Assembly (NCBI GenBank): GCA_015178975.1
Contig: WHVD01000028.1
Coordinates: 310,001 to 374,000 of the forward strand
Length of the DNA stretch: 64,000 nucleotides
Direction of reading: 5' to 3'
Origin: Hysterangium stoloniferum
Lineage: Eukaryota; Basidiomycota; Agaricomycetes; Hysterangiales; Hysterangiaceae
The notes below the pieces were generated by a model. It saw only the letters and a program-made list of their open reading frames with translations, ran no database searches and was not told where the DNA came from. Below are positions 7,753 to 64,000 of this stretch, in pieces; the first letter of the stretch is position 1, and the number at the start of each line of letters is the position of its first letter. A program made the translations under genes and the position numbers.

Positions 7753-8680
7753 TTATAAAGAATTTAGAGGACCGGGTTTATTCGGATAAGCTTGGTGAAA
7801 CCCTAAAATGATTTCCGAAGCATTACCGAGCTCTGTAGCTAGGATCCATGAGGTTTCTTCATCTGTACCTTCATAGCCAGCCCATTTAACCAAATAAAGT
7901 AATTTGCATGAGCGTCGGTGATTATCGATTTTTGAGTCTAGGATCTCTGATATCTCGAATTCGGGTTCTCCATCAATGATCACGGGTGGAGGTGGTGGTT
8001 GTATGCCATCCAGTATTCTGTTAGCAACACAAGGTTCTAACATAGATACATGAAATACCGGGTGCACTGCACGCATGTTGTCGGGGAGCCTAAGCGTCCA
8101 TGAAAGTGTGCCAGCTTGTGCTATAGCTTCAAAAGGACCTAAATATTTTTCAGAGAGCTTCTTAGAGGGTCTAGTAGTTCGGAAAAACTTGGCTTTAACG
8201 AATACTCGGTCTCCAATCTTGAAATCAGGAGGTGGAAGTCGGTTCTTATCTGCAGACCGTTGGTATCGTTCTTGAGCCATTGCGATAGTTTTATGAAGTT
8301 CTTGATGTAGCTCATCAAGGTTTGTAACAAAGTCTTGAGCACGGGCGGATGCGAGATCACGTTCCGGGTGGATTGCGATGTTGGGGTTGTAGCCTTTGTT
8401 TGTGAAGAAAGGTGAAATGCCAGTAGTGGCGTTCAGTGCATTGTTATATGTGAATTTGGCTAGCGGTAGTAGTAATTTCCAATTGTCTTGTTGGTAGTTA
8501 CAATAGACATGGATGTACTGTTCCAAAGTTTGATTCATGCGTTCGGTTTGGCCGTCGCCTTCTGGGTGATATCCCGAAGTGAAATGTAATTTCACATCTA
8601 GTGCTTTTCCGAGTGACCTAAAAAAGTGAGAGACAAACTGACTTATTTCCTTAGATCGGTTCGCAAATGCGTCCTCGTCG
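7753..8680 (-). pseudogene. Integrase C-terminal half plus chromodomain (gypsy pol)
   Basis: Encodes the second half of the DDE integrase core, including HFTSGYHPEGDGQTERMNQ with the catalytic Glu. It is followed by the GPFEAIAQ..TLSWTLRLPDNM integrase C-terminal (SH3-like) region and a chromodomain (EFEISEILDSK...YLVKWAGY...ETSWILATEL) at the very end. The chromodomain assigns the element to the chromovirus lineage. It is open in one frame to a stop at 7753, and its upstream half is displaced to about 11.3-11.6 kb by the nested insert. The surrounding 473-codon ORF (7753-9174) is a fusion with unrelated gag sequence. Confidence 0.85.
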
Positions 8681-9247
8681 ACGATTTCCTCAATGGTGGG
8701 AGGTTCAGGTCGCCATAAAACTCTTGTCTCAGTCAGACCTTCACAGTTCTGACGATGAGCGTCTAGCCAGTCTCCTTTCTCGAGAAAATCATGGTCAGAT
8801 ATAGAAATATAAACTTGCGATGTCTCGTTCTCATCCGAGGATGCTTTCACGTCTGAAACGATGTTGTCCTCTGGCTGAGGAAGGTAGACAGAAATGAAAA
8901 TCGATTCCTCATCAACGTTATGTACTTGTCCCTGTACACTTAATCCATAAACTGTTTCATAAGCCCTTTGATCCTCTGCCTCCTCCATTGGGTTCTGCAC
9001 GGAGCACTTGTTAATAGAGACATAGTGCAACATCCTGCCCGCATGGGGGCAGTCGATCTTGAAATGCTCTAAACTCCCACAAATCCAACACTCCTTCGGA
9101 GGTTTGGCGATGCTTTTCTTGTCACTCCGTTCGAAAAAGAACTTGCCATGTTTCTTACCCTGTTTAGCGTTCAATCTCCTAGAGGCGGTTTTATCCTCGA
9201 GTTCGCCGAGGAGGACGTGGCCTCAATTAGTGGGGTCGATTTTTCCA

Positions 9248-16013: not shown

Positions 16014-18338
16014 GTAAGCAATAATTGCATACTGAACACAAGAACAAAATGATACAATGTATTATCTGCTCAAATTGTTGGTATTCACATTAATCCACAA
16101 ATCCAATTCTATGCTATTATATTATATTGTAATTATGAAAGAGGGGGAGTTTGACTAAAAACAACTATAATTTCTGTTCTACTCAAAACATAGTAAGAAG
16201 AATAAAGGGGGCAGTGGATTCCTGGTGTAACACCTTGTGCATGCTCACACAGCCCTATTTCTAACAGTGGTTTGGTTCAGAACATTTGGCTCCATGTGAG
16301 TTGGATACAATACTAGTTTTACAATTAGAGCATTCAAAGATGATATACAGTCACATACTGTGCAATAGTGTCGGTATGACTAAAATCATACCTGCCAGTG
16401 GAGTACTCTAGCTCCCCACATTCATCAGAGTCCATCTCAGAGAGCCAGCTTTCACTGAGAAACTTTTCACCAGTTTTTTGACTGGGGAATGTTGGGAGAG
16501 CCTCCGAGAGTCTCTTTGCGGGTGGGGCCAATTGCCCTGGGTGATGTGACCATTGCTGTTCAAACGAAGGCTCAAATGTACAGCATCGATATCCCTCATC
16601 CACAGACTGACAACAGCAGCCCTCCATTCCTTTCTCAAGATAGTATACACAGGGGCATCATCTTCAAAGTCAGACTCATCAGAGCTCATTCCATCAACAC
16701 CCAAATTGTACAGAGCCTGGAGATGACAGTGAAGGTCAGGGTGACCCTTGGCTGCTCTGATGCGACAATAATATAACTATACAGTCCAATTTATATTTTT
16801 TTTGTCATGCATATGGTTACAACAGCTCACCGTAAGCTTCTGCCGACGTCTCACAGCTGGCTAAGATGAAGGGCAGTAGCAATGTCTGATACGGCTTCCT
16901 TTTGCTGTTCTTTATATTTTTTAATCAAATAGCCCATGTGCTGAATGAAGCGCTTTTTTTATGTCAACTTTGTCTTTATAATCGTGCCAGCTGACCGCAA
17001 CAAAATCTTCAGTGAATATCTGGGCCACTTTCTTATTCCACCCTGACCCAGGCAGACTGAGCAAATTATAATGAAGTTTGCTTTAGAGGGACCATCAAGC
17101 TGCTGTGCTGTGAGAATTCATTGTTTTCTAAATGACATGATATCATGTAGACAGACATCAGGTCAGTAAAAATCGCTAAGATTCATTTGCAATTTCGAGT
17201 CATTGTTCGTTGTTCTTTTTGACAATCGGTAATTACATTTAATAGAACCTTCTTACACTGTAAATATCAAATATCGAGGTCTTATTATTCCAAAATGTGA
17301 AAAATTATCAGTAATATGCCGGAAACATGGACCTTGGCAGCTAGAGGTTCTCTCCTACACATGTACATGGTGGAGCCCTAGGACAAACTAGAAGCTCCAT
17401 TTCACAGACAAGAGGTGAGACAAGGGATTGAATATTCCCCACAACATGTCCTGTCATGGACGACAGCTGATTTTTGGGCCCATGAGGATTGACGAAAATG
17501 ATACCTAGAAGGATAAAGCATATGCCTGCTACTATTCACATTCCAATTCCCTGAGGGAGAATTGTATACATCTAAGTGTATAGTTCTATAATTGGTATTA
17601 TTAGGTGAAGCAAAATATTGACTGACCTGTGTTTGTTCAGATGCCACCAATGGGTCCTGTGTCCTGATGGAGATGGGAGCAGTTGTGGCCCTTGGAGAGA
17701 CTTGAATTGTCTGTGTGAAGATGTCCATATTTTAATAATTCCCAAAGATCCTTCATTCAGAATAGAAGTGGCAACCACATTAACACCCAACCGTTGGGGA
17801 AAAACCTTCATTATAGAGAATGATTCAAGATTCATAAAGGGACCTCAGATATAGGCAAGTGCTCACTGCAAATGAATTGATTTGTTGTTGTCCTGCACAA
17901 CCTATCCAAACAAGACTATGTGATTCATTTTCACCTGCTCTCAGGGTGACAATTATGGGGGGGAGGCTAGGGGTTTGATATAGCACTCTTTTGGTTACTG
18001 GGAGATTATTGGGGGGGGTAAAAACAGTTAAGTATGTTCCATCGAGTATGACCAGGTGTTTTTGATCAGGGGTCAGCATTATATATATACTTAATAAACA
18101 GTCTTCAGTGTATATCACCGGTAATTATAAAGCTTCCAAACTCATGCAGCTGAATTCAATGGAATCTCCCAAATAGATATCCCATTAAGGATATCCAAAC
18201 ACCTTTGAGTTATGTCAATTAAATGTAAGCTAAGCATGTAATGTGCCCTCAAACAAATGACATACAAGACACTTTGTTCACCAGCTATAACTAGACGATT
18301 ACACCCATGGATAAATTCCTGTGTTTAGGATCATCATC
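16014..18338. other. Transposon-derived spacer
   Basis: Apart from the ORF at 16408-16704 I recognise no gene. Minus-strand ORFs at 17402-18118 are short and unassigned. The region reads as old transposon sequence next to the Tc1 element. Confidence 0.4.
16408..16704 (-). pseudogene. Fragment of a transposon-associated hypothetical ORF
   Basis: Begins MGVDGMSSDESDFEDD, followed by KEWRAAVVSLWMRDIDAVHLSLR and an NWPHPQRDSRRLS segment. It resembles a hypothetical ORF I associate with DNA transposons in Agaricomycetes (acidic GVDGMSSDESD motif, then a WLR-D-LH-R core). That link is from memory, not a search. It is truncated by a stop at 16408, and related sequence seems to continue in another frame to about 16334. 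Function unknown. Confidence 0.5.
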
Positions 18339-18866
18339 CTACTGGAAAGTGGCCTCACCTGCTGGAATCTCCAAATATTCAATGCTCTGGGACAAATTCT
18401 GAGCCAGGATCTCCACATATTGTGCAGAATCCATCCATCCTTCAATCTTTGCAAGCCTTCCCACTCCATTCCAACCCATACAGCCCCAGACCATGATATT
18501 TCCACCTCCATGCTTGACAGTAGGTTGGGTTATCCTATCAGAAAGTGGTTCTCCAGCTTTCTTCCACACATATTGATGTCCATCTGACCCAATCCTATTT
18601 ATTTTGGTCTCATCAGTCCAAAATACCCTCTTCCAGTCATCCACTGTCCAGTGTTGGTATTTGAGGACAAAGCTTAACCTGGCCTTTCTATGTTGAGCCT
18701 TCAACAAGGGCCTTTTTGCCTTGACTACTGCTTTGAAACTATGGTCCTCCTGACTGTGCTAGGTGACACATTATATTGATTGATACTGTGAATGTAATGT
18801 GTAGCTTGGACAGCATTATCTAACTGGCCAGAGGGGATTGGCCAGAGGGGATTTGATGCATGATCC

Positions 18867-18994
18867 TGTTAGATTGAGTAATGCTAGCAGTGCTTCCCAG
18901 GGTCAGGTGGTGTAATGGTTAACACCCCTGCTATATATGCAGAAGCCCTGGGTTCAATCCCCAGTCTGGCCATTCATTTTCTACACTTTCAACA
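18867..18994 (+). repeat. TRIM 5' LTR
   Basis: 128 bp, TG...CA ends, followed directly by the primer-binding site. It includes the tRNA-like cassette at 18901-18972. Confidence 0.92.
18901..18972 (+). ncRNA. tRNA-like Pol III cassette in the 5' LTR
   Basis: Folds by eye as a cloverleaf. Acceptor GGTCAGG pairs with TCTGGCC (two G-U pairs), D stem GTGT with ACAC, four pairs of anticodon stem (CTGC with GCAG) around loop TATATAT, and T stem CTGGG with CCCAG around TTCAATC, with discriminator A. A box TGGTGTAATGG and B box GGTTCAATCCC both fit eukaryotic Pol III consensus. A TTTT run (18978-18981) follows within ten bases. Position 33 is A instead of the near-universal U and the top anticodon-stem pair is C-A, so translation use is doubtful. 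Formal anticodon UAU. Confidence 0.7.
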
Positions 18995-19149
18995 GGTTAT
19001 GGGCCCCGCTGTGTGCTATAGGGCATGGTTCCTGTGTGTAGAGTGAACAGCTATATTTGTGTGTGGTATAGTGGACAAGTCTGGACAAAAGAGCCAGAGA
19101 GGACCTATATCTGCTTATAGTATAGTTGAGTGCTAGCATTAAGGGAGTG

Positions 19150-19277
19150 TGTTAGATTGAGTAATGCTAGCAGTGCTTCCCAGGGTCAGGTGGTGTAATG
19201 GTTAACACCCCTGCTATATATGCAGAAGCCCTGGGTTCAATCCCCAGTCTGGCCATTCATTTTCTACACTTTCAACA
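19150..19277 (+). repeat. TRIM 3' LTR
   Basis: 128 bp, identical by eye to 18867-18994 and followed by the second GATCC. Confidence 0.92.
19184..19255 (+). ncRNA. tRNA-like Pol III cassette in the 3' LTR
   Basis: Second identical copy of the cassette at 18901-18972, with the same A box, B box and downstream TTTT. Confidence 0.7.
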
Positions 19278-19616
19278 GATCCTCCTTTGGTCAGGAGGAG
19301 AAAGCTTAGATGGACATCCTCCTTTCAGGTTTTCTTTGTCTATCTCTATCTCCTGAGCAACTCTACTGATAGTAGACTTGCTAAGACTTGTTGTAAAAGC
19401 TACATTCCTATTGGAGAGTCCATTTTGTAAGAGGGAGATGGCTTGTTCTCTTTTGAGAGGGGAAATAGCTTTCATGATAAGAATGATAGTTGAAATGTGG
19501 CATTTAATGGCACATATTAATTAGAACATCAAATAGATGTCACGTGATTTTTCCTGTAATTTTCCTAGCCCTCTAGAATATAATATGATGTAATGAAATG
19601 TGTGAAAAGAGAGGGT

Positions 19617-19822
19617 TGCAAAACTGTCCCAATGATTGGTCATTTTGAAATATTGACTGTGACACCAATATCCATCTATATTATGTAATATTGGGGTATA
19701 TCAAAGCTAGTATGTTAAGGTATATGTGAAAATAATTTCACTATTTTAGAAAATTTATTTGGTAGGTTATAAAGCATTTACTGAGAATTACCAAAACATT
19801 GGGACAGTTTTGGAAGCCACTG
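19617..19822. repeat. Inverted repeat, Tc1 terminal sequence
   Basis: GCAAAACTGTCCCAATG near 19617 is mirrored by CATTGGGACAGTTTTGG near 19799, followed by AAGCCACTGTA ending at about 19822. The outer CACTG/TA end is typical of Tc1-type terminal inverted repeats. It may be the right end of the Tc1 element at 18339-19475, or a separate 200-bp MITE derived from it. Confidence 0.6.
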
Positions 19823-20045
19823 TAAGCCTTGGTTCATGTGATTTGAATCAACATAAATAAAACAAAACAGCTACTCATTGAGACAGTTTTTTGACCCTTT
19901 ATTTTTTGACCTGTGTTCCTACTGTTATACACCAGTACAAGGCAGAGGGAGGCTGTGGGAACAATAAAACATGTCACATGACTGTATTTGTATTTGTTTG
20001 ACTGTTTAAAGTGGTTCAACTACATCCTGACTTCTTACCACTATC

Positions 20046-60850: not shown

Positions 60851-61980
60851 CCTCTTTAAGCGAGGAGTCCAAAATGTCGGACTCATACTTACGACAATAA
60901 GGTTTTCGGAAACTCTGGTAAAACTCCATGTGTTTCAAGGGACTTTCAAGGGACTTCCATGCGCCTTTTGATGTCGAAATTTTGGACGTCCGAGCTGTGT
61001 CTTTAGCGTCTTTGTAAAACCCTTACACCGGAGGAGTTCTACCGCCAATCTTCAGCGGCTAGCTCGAAAAAAATTGTATAAGGAGGCTAAAATAAACGGA
61101 GTTGCCTTCAAATCAAAGTAAAGCTGGTTATTTCATGTGCACCGGGGACACACATGTACCCATATGCAAAGTTGGGCACGGGTTCGATTTTCATCGTGAG
61201 AGCTTAGGTCAACAAATTTTTTAAAAGAGCGCTCTAAAGCCTTGAGTTTTAACTGAGGCGCTCTAATTATTAAATATCCCCATATCATTTAATTTAGACC
61301 TTTGCGCAGACAATGGCACCACACCTGCCCCCGACCTTGCCTGTTAATATTCATCTCTACTTAGGAGTAGCTTGCACAAAGGGACATGGTCCCTTCCGAC
61401 CGACTCCGGAACACGGGACTGCCTCGTGTGCGAGTTCACTCCTCGTTCCAGAACAGTATAAGTATAAATCACATCTCTCATCGACCAGGTCTTCATTTCA
61501 TCCCCTCTTCTCATTCCCCTTGTCGAACACAATTATCTGGAATTTCTCAACGATCAAATCTTCCCTCAGTGTTTCTGTTCAAATCGATGTGTAGCGTTGT
61601 TATCGCCCCTTGCGAATCCCTCGCCGCTACTTTGTAAGCTAGTCTCTTTTCGATGTTTACCGTCTGATGCATTCCTATTAGTGATCATGGAATGGAAACG
61701 TTGACGGGATGGCCCGACCATCCTCCGATCCGATCGAAGGGAGCGATCTATACAGAGGATAGGGGAACTATCTCCAAAAGAGTTGGAGATTACCCAGATA
61801 GGTGTGGCAATCTCATTACGATTACGAATGACGGTGAGCATGATTCGAAACGCAAAGCACCACGCACCAAATGAACTCTTACTAGTTGCGGCGGAATGTG
61901 GTACGGTCCTTTCGGGGAAGTAAGTAGTTTGAAATAGTGTAATTCCCTCTGATCACTTAATCAGTGATTCAAATCGAAGG

Positions 61981-64000
61981 ACATTTGCCTTCGCTACTGT
62001 CGCTGACCGCCACCAAGCCTCCCCCAGCCCGGGAAAACCCACCTCTGACGCAAATGATTACGAACTGAAGACGAACTTCAACAACTCTGTGAGGATCTCG
62101 TTATAATTGTATATGGCTCCAAGGCCACTCGCTCATCAAATTTACAGAACCTTCGTGAATGGAAGGATAATTCACACATACATTCCATTGCCATCTACAT
62201 TCCCGGATACGGTAATAACGAAAAACAATGCCATTCAAGATGCAAATCTGGCAGTGCTATTCTCTCTTGTGATACCAATACGACGCAGGACGGGAGGGCA
62301 TGCCATCCAACGACGCACTGCGCAGTCGCAGAACTGCCTGAGGACTCTGCAAAGGTTGAAGGGAACAAACCCGTACGCTTCATAGCATTCCCCACTGTTC
62401 ATGCCAATACTAACCAACTATCGCTAAGTTATTAATCCTTGATTGTGTTCATTGTCCACTGAATGGTTCGCCAATAACCTCTAGCACTGGCATGGCAGGG
62501 TTCACAGCACTCGAGAGTGAGCTTCCACAAGATCTAGATGCCGATGTCTTATCATCTAACAATGAGCCCCCCACATTTTCAAGATCCAGTATCCTTCAAA
62601 GGTGGTCTGTGCGGAGTGGATGAAGCTGCCCGGGAAAGCAACAAGCTTAGCCATTCAACCACCGTCCTGTTCGCTACTCTGTGTGGAACTAACATTACAA
62701 GCATGTCCTCCATAGATTTAAGCAAAGCACTCTCAGAAGTTTCTAAGTACAGCTCGACTTTTTTTCACTGCTCTCGATGTTGACTAAACCTCAGCCAGGA
62801 ACATCCCCAGTGTCAAGGTGTCCATAAAGACATACTCTTGTTCACCGCAGATGCAGCGATCGGCGACAATTCTCATTTTTTCTTAGTACGCAATGAGGGA
62901 CAGGCGTATAGACTATTGGCAGCTGAATCCCATGGGGTCTTCCTCGGTGCTTTTTTCTCCGTGTTGAAAAACACCCCCTCTACCTTCCAAATCACACACG
63001 TTGGAAGCGACGACAGTATCCCCGAACCGAGCGATAAGGGATACTCTGATTGTCGCTCTGTGCCGTCCAAGTTGGTTCAGACTCAGCGGGAGCGTACCCG
63101 CTTTCCAGAAAAACTGACTGTTCATTTTTCGGACCGGTTTGAAGCGTGTACGGTGAAACGCATACTAGTCAACGCAATGGAGGCGTTAAACCTGAAAGAA
63201 GAAGATAACCTTATTGTTGTAGTTGAGCGCAATGAGGCAGTACTTATCGTGGATCAGGATCAAGATCAAACTAGTGCTGGAGGTATTGCGAGTTTCTCAA
63301 TGAGAATATCCCACCCGAAAGTCGGCGGCGTTTACCGACTAGCACTGCATTCGTCTGCAAACTCCGTGGAAGAAATGTCAGCCGCGATTCGAACAGTCGC
63401 ACAGTGGAATTGGAGTCGACTGCGAGGGGAATCTTTAATGGGCCAAAACGACATTTCCGTCGAGTTCTACCCCCTTCAGTACGAATATGACCTGCTTAAT
63501 GAGCCATTCAACATGATCCTAAGCCCGAAACAACCCCTTCAGAGCATTATTTCAGATAATGTGATCGATGTTGTCCCTAACCCATACGACTCGTATGGGC
63601 TCAAAATCGTCAACAACACTTCCACCGATCTTTTCGCTCATCTTTTTTATTTGGGGCTGAAACACCAGAGCATTGGTGAGCATCTAAAGTAATTCTGCGC
63701 GCAAGGCACGCCCCCATGTTGACTTTGAGTCCAGAACATAACGAGCTCGGGCCATTGGATATACATGGTACGGGGGTGTCCTTAATGGCCAATTCTCATA
63801 TCACCGTTGGTTACGGCGCCGGTCGGAACTCTGGTGATCCCTTTTCGTTCGAACTACAGGAGTGCGACCGTGGAGAGGACCAACTGGGATTCATCAAGCT
63901 CTTTCTGACAACTGCGGCCGTCAATTCCAACTCGCTAGTGCAGTTTATTCCTTTCCAAAACCACCATGAAACGTCGATTGGATTGAATGATCAGCGGATT
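61981..64000 (+). pseudogene. Caspase-like gene, copy 3: catalytic residues lost, runs off window
   Basis: Aligns with copies 1 and 2 piece by piece. TFAFATVADRHQ is from 61981, then LVIIVYGSKATR and IAIYIPGYGNNE (His replaced by Tyr, codon 62208-62210). An intron at 62373-62428 is followed by LLILDCVHCPLNGS (catalytic Cys replaced by Val, codon 62447-62449). LCGVDEAARES is near 62610. An intron at 62747-62794 precedes NQEHPQCQGVHKDILLF and the C-terminal domain, an intron lies at 63676-63734, and the last exon continues past 64000. Intron sites and phases match copies 1 and 2. Frameshifts seem to lie near 62060-62080 and 62575-62605 in the caspase half. The C-terminal half is open for over 280 codons. 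It is a pseudogene or a domain-only descendant. Confidence 0.75.

Follow-up and report, generated by a model that had tools for sequence, protein, structure and literature searches.

A Helenus-type TRIM family of an agaricomycete, with a tRNA-like cassette in its LTRs, probably transcribed by RNA polymerase III and moved through Copia elements

The stretch of Hysterangium stoloniferum DNA analyzed here, 64 kb in length (hereafter the window), carries a TRIM of 411 bp at positions 18867–19277, coordinates that a preliminary description had given exactly to the base. Comparison of the sequence with itself revealed two 100% identical stretches, 18867–18995 and 19150–19278, of 129 nt each, of which 128 constitute the LTR. 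The two identical 128-bp LTRs, their termini TGTT...AACA and the GATCC duplication flanking the element on each side were all found at the positions previously assigned to them. The internal region starts with GGTTATGGGCCCCGC and ends with AAGGGAGTG, and only two stop-to-stop frames of at least 50 aa, of 52 and 56 aa, lie wholly within the element. Its features are as follows.

18862–18866, no strand: left target-site duplication (TSD) GATCC, read from the sequence
18867–18994, plus strand: 5' LTR, 128 bp, TGTT...AACA, from the sequence and self-comparison
18901–18972, plus strand: tRNA-like cassette in the 5' LTR, 72-nt cloverleaf, from ARAGORN and Rfam
18908–18918, plus strand: A-box-like TGGTGTAATGG, by the consensus in its 11-letter form
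18913, plus strand: LTR position 47 (T47), where four truncated copies elsewhere in the genome have their left end
18951–18961, plus strand: B-box-like GGTTCAATCCC, by the consensus
18977–18980, plus strand: TTTT after the 5' LTR cassette, read from the sequence; TTAT in 52 of 128 LTRs
18995–19009, plus strand: primer-binding site (PBS) GGTTATGGGCCCCGC, perfectly complementary over 15 nt to initiator-tRNA-like genes of this genome (anticodon half)
18995–19149, plus strand: internal region, 155 bp, non-coding by frame scan
19141–19149, plus strand: polypurine tract (PPT) AAGGGAGTG, read from the sequence
19150–19277, plus strand: 3' LTR, 128 bp, same as the 5' LTR by self-comparison
19184–19255, plus strand: tRNA-like cassette in the 3' LTR, from ARAGORN and Rfam
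19260–19263, plus strand: TTTT after the 3' LTR cassette, read from the sequence
19278–19282, no strand: right TSD GATCC, read from the sequence

The sequence that received the insertion is Tc1/mariner-like. Transposase fragments of this type were found on the minus strand at 18339–18758 and 19272–19520, with a weak Pfam match (HTH_Tnp_Tc3_2, 22 bits, below the cut-off of 31.5), and the TRIM is inserted there. When the two flanks were joined without the TRIM, all 40 scored places (the best 40 of 220 candidates) matched at 82–89% across the junction, and these matches read as empty sites in related copies of the transposon. A 14-bp tandem duplication is present in the host transposon at 18825–18852, and the alignment of the empty relatives is shorter by about 14 bp. 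Elsewhere in the window, the minus strand at 7753–9174 bears the end of a Gypsy-type element with Tf2-1-like SH3 and chromodomain, and a sub-threshold zinc-knuckle in the same frame.

The 72-nt cassette proposed for each LTR was recognized by two programs. ARAGORN called a tRNA (Ile, tat) at 18901–18972 and at 19184–19255, its sole two calls in the 64-kb window, and the Rfam tRNA model matched each cassette with 46.8 bits and an E value of 2.3e-8 (gathering score 29). An Rfam search of positions 18000–20000 at E up to 1 returned tRNA only and no 5S rRNA in the LTR. In the window cassette 20 of 21 cloverleaf pairs form, and TTTT starts 4 nt beyond each cassette. Within it, TGGTGTAATGG, which we take to be an A-box-like element, matches the 11-letter and not the 12-letter form of the consensus; the 11-letter form occurs 8 times on the plus strand of the window and is hence not rare. 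The word GGTTCAATCCC, B-box-like by its consensus, occurs twice on the plus strand and not at all on the minus strand of the window. A second subfamily (L150, L107), 91–92% like the first, retains the cloverleaf, differing at four stem positions and keeping or gaining the pair at all four; over all LTRs, nine kinds of change affect paired positions, five keeping or gaining the pair and four breaking it. In a relic with 83% likeness (L100), ARAGORN still calls a tRNA and the cloverleaf folds in outline. Position 33 is A in the window cassette, the second subfamily and this relic, and because U33 is, to our knowledge, near-universal in tRNAs, the cassette is unlikely to be a translating tRNA and is read as a promoter. 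Among young copies, which differ little, neither the A nor the B box visibly stands out in conservation from the remainder of the LTR; selection on the boxes was dropped as an argument because the differences among the aligned LTRs are too few. The ARAGORN calls also illustrate that high-copy LTR cassettes can enter an annotation as tRNA-Ile genes. A separate observation concerns intron-containing tRNA-Lys(CTT)-like genes, which form clusters at C112:0.91–1.22 Mb, C68:0.74–0.85 Mb, C290, C410 and C526 (among L118–L142), sometimes two or three in 3 kb, and account for much of the 62 tRNA matches scored.

A search of the genome (111 Mb, 554 contigs) with the cassette yielded 191 matches at up to 3 mismatches and none with a reversed control, and at least 43 full-length places at 98–100% identity were found among the best 40 of 507 candidates, tandem units being counted apart. 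The copies analyzed came from 80 regions plus the window, with places taken from the element search, from 100 listed of the 191 cassette matches and from 4 further places; this sample is partial, its selection favours likeness to the window element, and places C268:186227, C46:531551 and C7:285513 of the last search lie outside it. An exact 5-bp TSD was present in 65 of the 71 groups with both element ends intact, namely 34 of 37 full-length elements, 27 of 30 solo LTRs and all 4 three-LTR tandems. The 65 duplications comprise 63 distinct sequences, and equal 5-mers between different loci were met in 7 of 4970 control comparisons. A further 15 groups with incomplete ends lie outside the 71, four of them with a TSD at an alternative left end. 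LTR pairs (n = 45, tandem units and L068/L071 counted apart) were identical in 31 cases, differed at one position in 8 and at 2 to 14 positions in 6; the recent movement that had been suggested from the window copy is upheld. The cassette was present in all 128 full LTRs aligned; as these were chosen by likeness to the window LTR, cassette-free LTRs would escape.

The groups without an exact TSD are L059, L068, L071, L083, L091 and L105. Since their flanks are identical, L068 and L071 may be a single locus counted twice. The solo LTRs L083 and L084 (C57:941469 and C57:992101) lie 50 kb apart; their left flanks are the same and their right flanks nearly so, perhaps through segmental duplication. 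At C520:241359–241839, on the minus strand, three TRIM LTR/PBS junctions known from positions alone are spaced at 220 bp, as would be expected if a shorter variant of the TRIM, its internal region about 92 bp long, were arrayed in tandem.

On another account the cassettes would be plain copies of tRNA genes, or a repeat of SINE type, and local duplication would have produced the direct repeats; the tRNA-like sequence with TTTT and its high copy number speak for it. The TSDs, however, border the LTRs rather than the cassette, the PBS is conserved, as is the PPT that had been noted beforehand (54 of 55 PPT 20-mers are identical), and solo LTRs with TSDs occur along with empty sites; we regard this account as extremely improbable. 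A tRNA-derived SINE is ruled out by the LTRs, the PBS, the PPT and the fixed 5-bp TSDs, and a merely local duplication, the outcome against which the preliminary description had weighed its proposal, is excluded because many copies carry the cassette and their TSDs vary. At the level of sequence, the 5-bp TSDs, PBS, PPT, identical LTRs and empty sites establish the TRIM family as real, recently active and moving as an LTR element.

The TTTT terminator attributed to the cassette is present in both window LTRs and is not fixed in the family: the terminator place reads TTTT in 73, TTAT in 52 and otherwise in 3 of the 128 full LTRs, which were drawn from the 80 regions and include 2 from L150 and 4 from L068/L071. 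TTAT is probably the derived form, because the second subfamily (L150, L107) reads TTTT. The full or tandem elements flanked by TSDs number 38, of which 19 carry TTAT throughout their LTRs, 17 carry TTTT throughout and 2 are mixed; the TSD-flanked solo LTRs comprise 20 with TTTT, 5 with TTAT and 2 others. For all intact-ended copies the ratio of TTTT to TTAT was 19 : 20 in full elements versus 22 : 5 in solo LTRs (Fisher p 0.0097), and for the listed cassette-match places it was 13 : 17 versus 20 : 5 (Fisher p 0.0069), where each test omits the 2 full elements that are mixed and the 3 solo LTRs with neither form and the p values are only a guide because the copies are related by descent and not independent. 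The form lacking TTTT thus appears to be commoner among intact copies, these being probably younger. LTR positions 7 and 113 occur in all four combinations (61, 40, 15 and 12), which suggests that lineages have exchanged sequence or that mutations have recurred. Apart from its two TTTTs the window element has no run of 4 or more T, so that a copy otherwise equal to it with TTAT in both LTRs would have no internal Pol III stop. Some other tRNA-like genes of this genome, among them L123, L125 and L130, likewise have T4 as their first downstream T run, and runs of 5 to 8 follow many of these genes. T4 terminates Pol III weakly in budding yeast, according to the available part of PMC9278858.

From the tRNA-like cassette we infer that the TRIM is transcribed by Pol III. 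Transcription by Pol II as in ordinary LTR elements would leave the cassette as a passenger (tRNA or SINE) or simply as a TFIIIC-binding site, with Pol III irrelevant to the RNA used in transposition; this would suit a TTTT that is dispensable, as it seems to be in the 19 of 38 elements with TTAT throughout, and an element like that of the window, devoid of any further T run of 4 or more. Set against it are the cloverleaf retained in the second subfamily, the tRNA call in the 83% relic and the conservation of the surroundings of both boxes across Helenus families, reported in the accessible text of PMC10886601, and we judge it quite unlikely. Pol III transcription is kept as the preferred reading; counting against it are the TTAT of 52 of 128 LTRs, boxes that show no visible excess of conservation among the young copies, and the four of nine kinds of stem change that break a pair.

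A half-tRNA primer site had also been proposed. Three initiator-tRNA-like genes of the genome read ...GCGGGGCCCATAACCC (31 letters each) and the PBS is a 15-nt perfect complement of all three, in agreement with that proposal; it is kept in 45 of 55 full internal regions. A 12-nt PBS word followed by A, G or T gave 210 matches in the genome and 1 in the control. Thirteen regions containing this word were read, among them L150, with TRIM parts at both occurrences, and L148, which does not resemble an LTR junction. Frames following the PBS were scanned in 7 of the 13, and 5 of the 7 match Pfam Retrotran_gag_2, the Copia gag: L144 (72.8 bits), L146 (71.6) and L143 (47.5) exceed the cut-off of 27, L153 (26.8) and L151 (25.1) fall just under it, and the post-PBS frames of L145 and L155 gave no match. 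Over the few hundred bases read in each Copia-like region, no likeness to the TRIM internal region was found beyond the PBS at E 1e-5, and the search for an autonomous partner through internal-region sequence was dropped on that account. Among the best 150 of 1270 candidates for Copia RVT_2, many frames exceed 1300 aa without a stop, and Copia looks recently active in this genome.

At two places (L094, and L112, which is the same as L023) the order is Copia LTR, PBS, TRIM internal region, TRIM LTR, PBS and Copia gag frame. In L094, 135 bp of LTR end plus PBS are 94% like L144, the 489 bp downstream are 96.5% like the internal side of L144, and the gag frame scores 71.2 bits. L112 belongs with the family of L145, to which it is similar over 58 bp at 84% before and 149 bp at 87% after the TRIM unit, and its gag frame scores 100.4 bits. 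TRIM units are seen here joined to Copia elements, and the sequence reads as a unit spliced in exactly at the PBS common to two different Copia families. We interpret such joins as second-strand transfer between co-packaged cDNAs. The same logic, transfer of the second strand at the PBS between two packaged RNAs, is proposed in the available part of PMC9278108 as the source of asymmetric LTRs in HIV-1, where deletions within one virus are concerned, whereas two different element families are involved here.

Other arrangements were also encountered. In L150, on the minus strand, foreign sequence ending in TAACA is followed by the internal region and LTR of the TRIM, and a second PBS is lacking. 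At C24:163148 and C141:38734 the internal region that follows a Helenus-type LTR is not that of the TRIM; this other region is apparently non-coding in L002/L033 (C141:37301–39900) and L150 (C24:163148–163600), with no frame above 74 aa in the first 1.4 kb at C141. The exact LTR/internal join was found at 2 of 36 matches in a search for the junction that allowed 3 mismatches in 41, would miss joins with more diverged LTR ends and listed 5 of the 36 without their sequence, and the alternative internal region itself matched at about 40 scored places among the best of 69 candidates. A longer element family with a tRNA-bearing LTR was dropped in favour of joins, the exact join being so rare. At C140:60984–65631 positions alone place, all on the plus strand, an LTR at 60984, RVT_2 with one stop at 63872–64603, a PBS at 65348 and an LTR at 65504; with the LTRs 4.5 kb apart, this may be a Copia element between TRIM LTRs.

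In four copies (L082, L090, L106 and L111) the 5' LTR starts at T47 and the 3' LTR is complete. The 5 bp before T47 are GTCCG, ATCAC, GAAGG and GTTTT, respectively, and in each case equal the 5 bp after the 3' LTR. T47 is preceded in the whole LTR by GGTCAGGTGGTG, and the true left end by AAGGGAGTG; these ends are best explained by plus-strand priming at a cryptic purine-rich site within the tRNA-derived cassette. A fifth copy, L042, is less certain: it starts around position 34 of the internal region and, provided that TG are its first bases, is flanked by AAGAA on each side. Later genomic rearrangement, rather than reverse transcription, could have produced both the T47 ends and the Copia/TRIM joins: such joins could stem from a circle with one LTR that underwent homologous crossover within the PBS region common to both, and three-LTR tandems could stem from LTR–LTR crossover, as discussed for Cassandra arrays in the accessible text of PMC7215508. 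The left ends at four places, however, share the same base and each abuts an exact 5-bp TSD, as integration would give. This evidence concerns the left ends and not the joins, for which crossover may also account; taken as a whole, we hold rearrangement to be a rather doubtful alternative to priming and transfer during reverse transcription.

These features place the window TRIM in a known group. TRIMs with tRNA-like LTR sequence were named Helenus by Kojima in 2024, with 113 families in Pucciniales and some in Agaricomycetes (PMC10886601, available part), so that a tRNA-bearing TRIM in a fungus is no longer the novelty that the preliminary description had allowed for. According to the same portion of that source, Helenus elements measure 311–1263 bp, show in fungi 5-bp TSDs, Copia-like PBSs and anticodon-loop primers, most commonly initiator tRNA, form tandem arrays in one fish family, and have Pol III transcription as yet unproven for the group in general. 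The window TRIM agrees with them in the tRNA-like sequence in both LTRs, its 411 bp, the 5-bp TSD, the solo LTRs, a PBS of the prevailing fungal type, complementary to the anticodon loop of initiator tRNA and common to Copia, an internal region bounded by PBS and PPT, and a cassette unlikely to be a working tRNA. By the features described it belongs to Helenus, probably as a further family. Protein relatives of the host, from 7999 candidates scored, fall in Lyophyllaceae and other Agaricomycetes, the best-scoring named one being 53% identical (Hypsizygus marmoreus). The TTTT/TTAT polymorphism, the T47 ends and the Copia/TRIM joins at the PBS are differences, going without mention in the part of PMC10886601 available.

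The parallel previously drawn with Cassandra of plants is sound as regards a Pol III gene piece in the LTR of a short, non-coding element, and extends to the methionine PBS and the tandem LTR-internal-LTR arrays (PMC7215508 and PMC10853983, parts available); Cassandra differs in its plant hosts and in carrying 5S rRNA instead of a tRNA, and Pol III transcripts are reported for it, as stated in the accessible text of PMC10886601. Ajax of nemerteans, in the same text, is likewise a TRIM with a small-RNA promoter in the LTR and a 5-bp TSD, and differs in using a 5S piece and the 3' end of tRNA-Leu as primer.

Combined, the observations make it likely that the element is a Helenus-type non-autonomous LTR retrotransposon of an agaricomycete, driven by Pol III and moved via Copia. 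The tRNA-derived boxes of the 5' LTR would recruit RNA polymerase III, the weak TTTT would be read through to give a full-length RNA, and Copia particles would package this RNA; with a half of initiator tRNA(Met), released by cleavage, as primer, it would be copied into cDNA, which Copia enzymes would integrate. A more far-reaching proposal, which we offer tentatively and regard as doubtful, is that a Pol III-driven LTR element is shedding its terminator, the change from TTTT to TTAT having reached about half of those copies that are intact, and that at least two Copia families have exchanged packaged RNA with it through the common primer site, leaving TRIM cargo inside Copia.

The family described here adds a young, high-copy member to Helenus outside the rusts, with its Copia context visible in the same genome. 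The T47 ends, the loss of the terminator and the Copia joins are the parts of specialist interest. The natural split between TTTT and TTAT offers a ready comparison for how a promoter in the 5' LTR that is followed by its own terminator yields full-length RNA, and the Copia/TRIM joins bear on the question of whose enzymes move TRIMs with a Pol III promoter.
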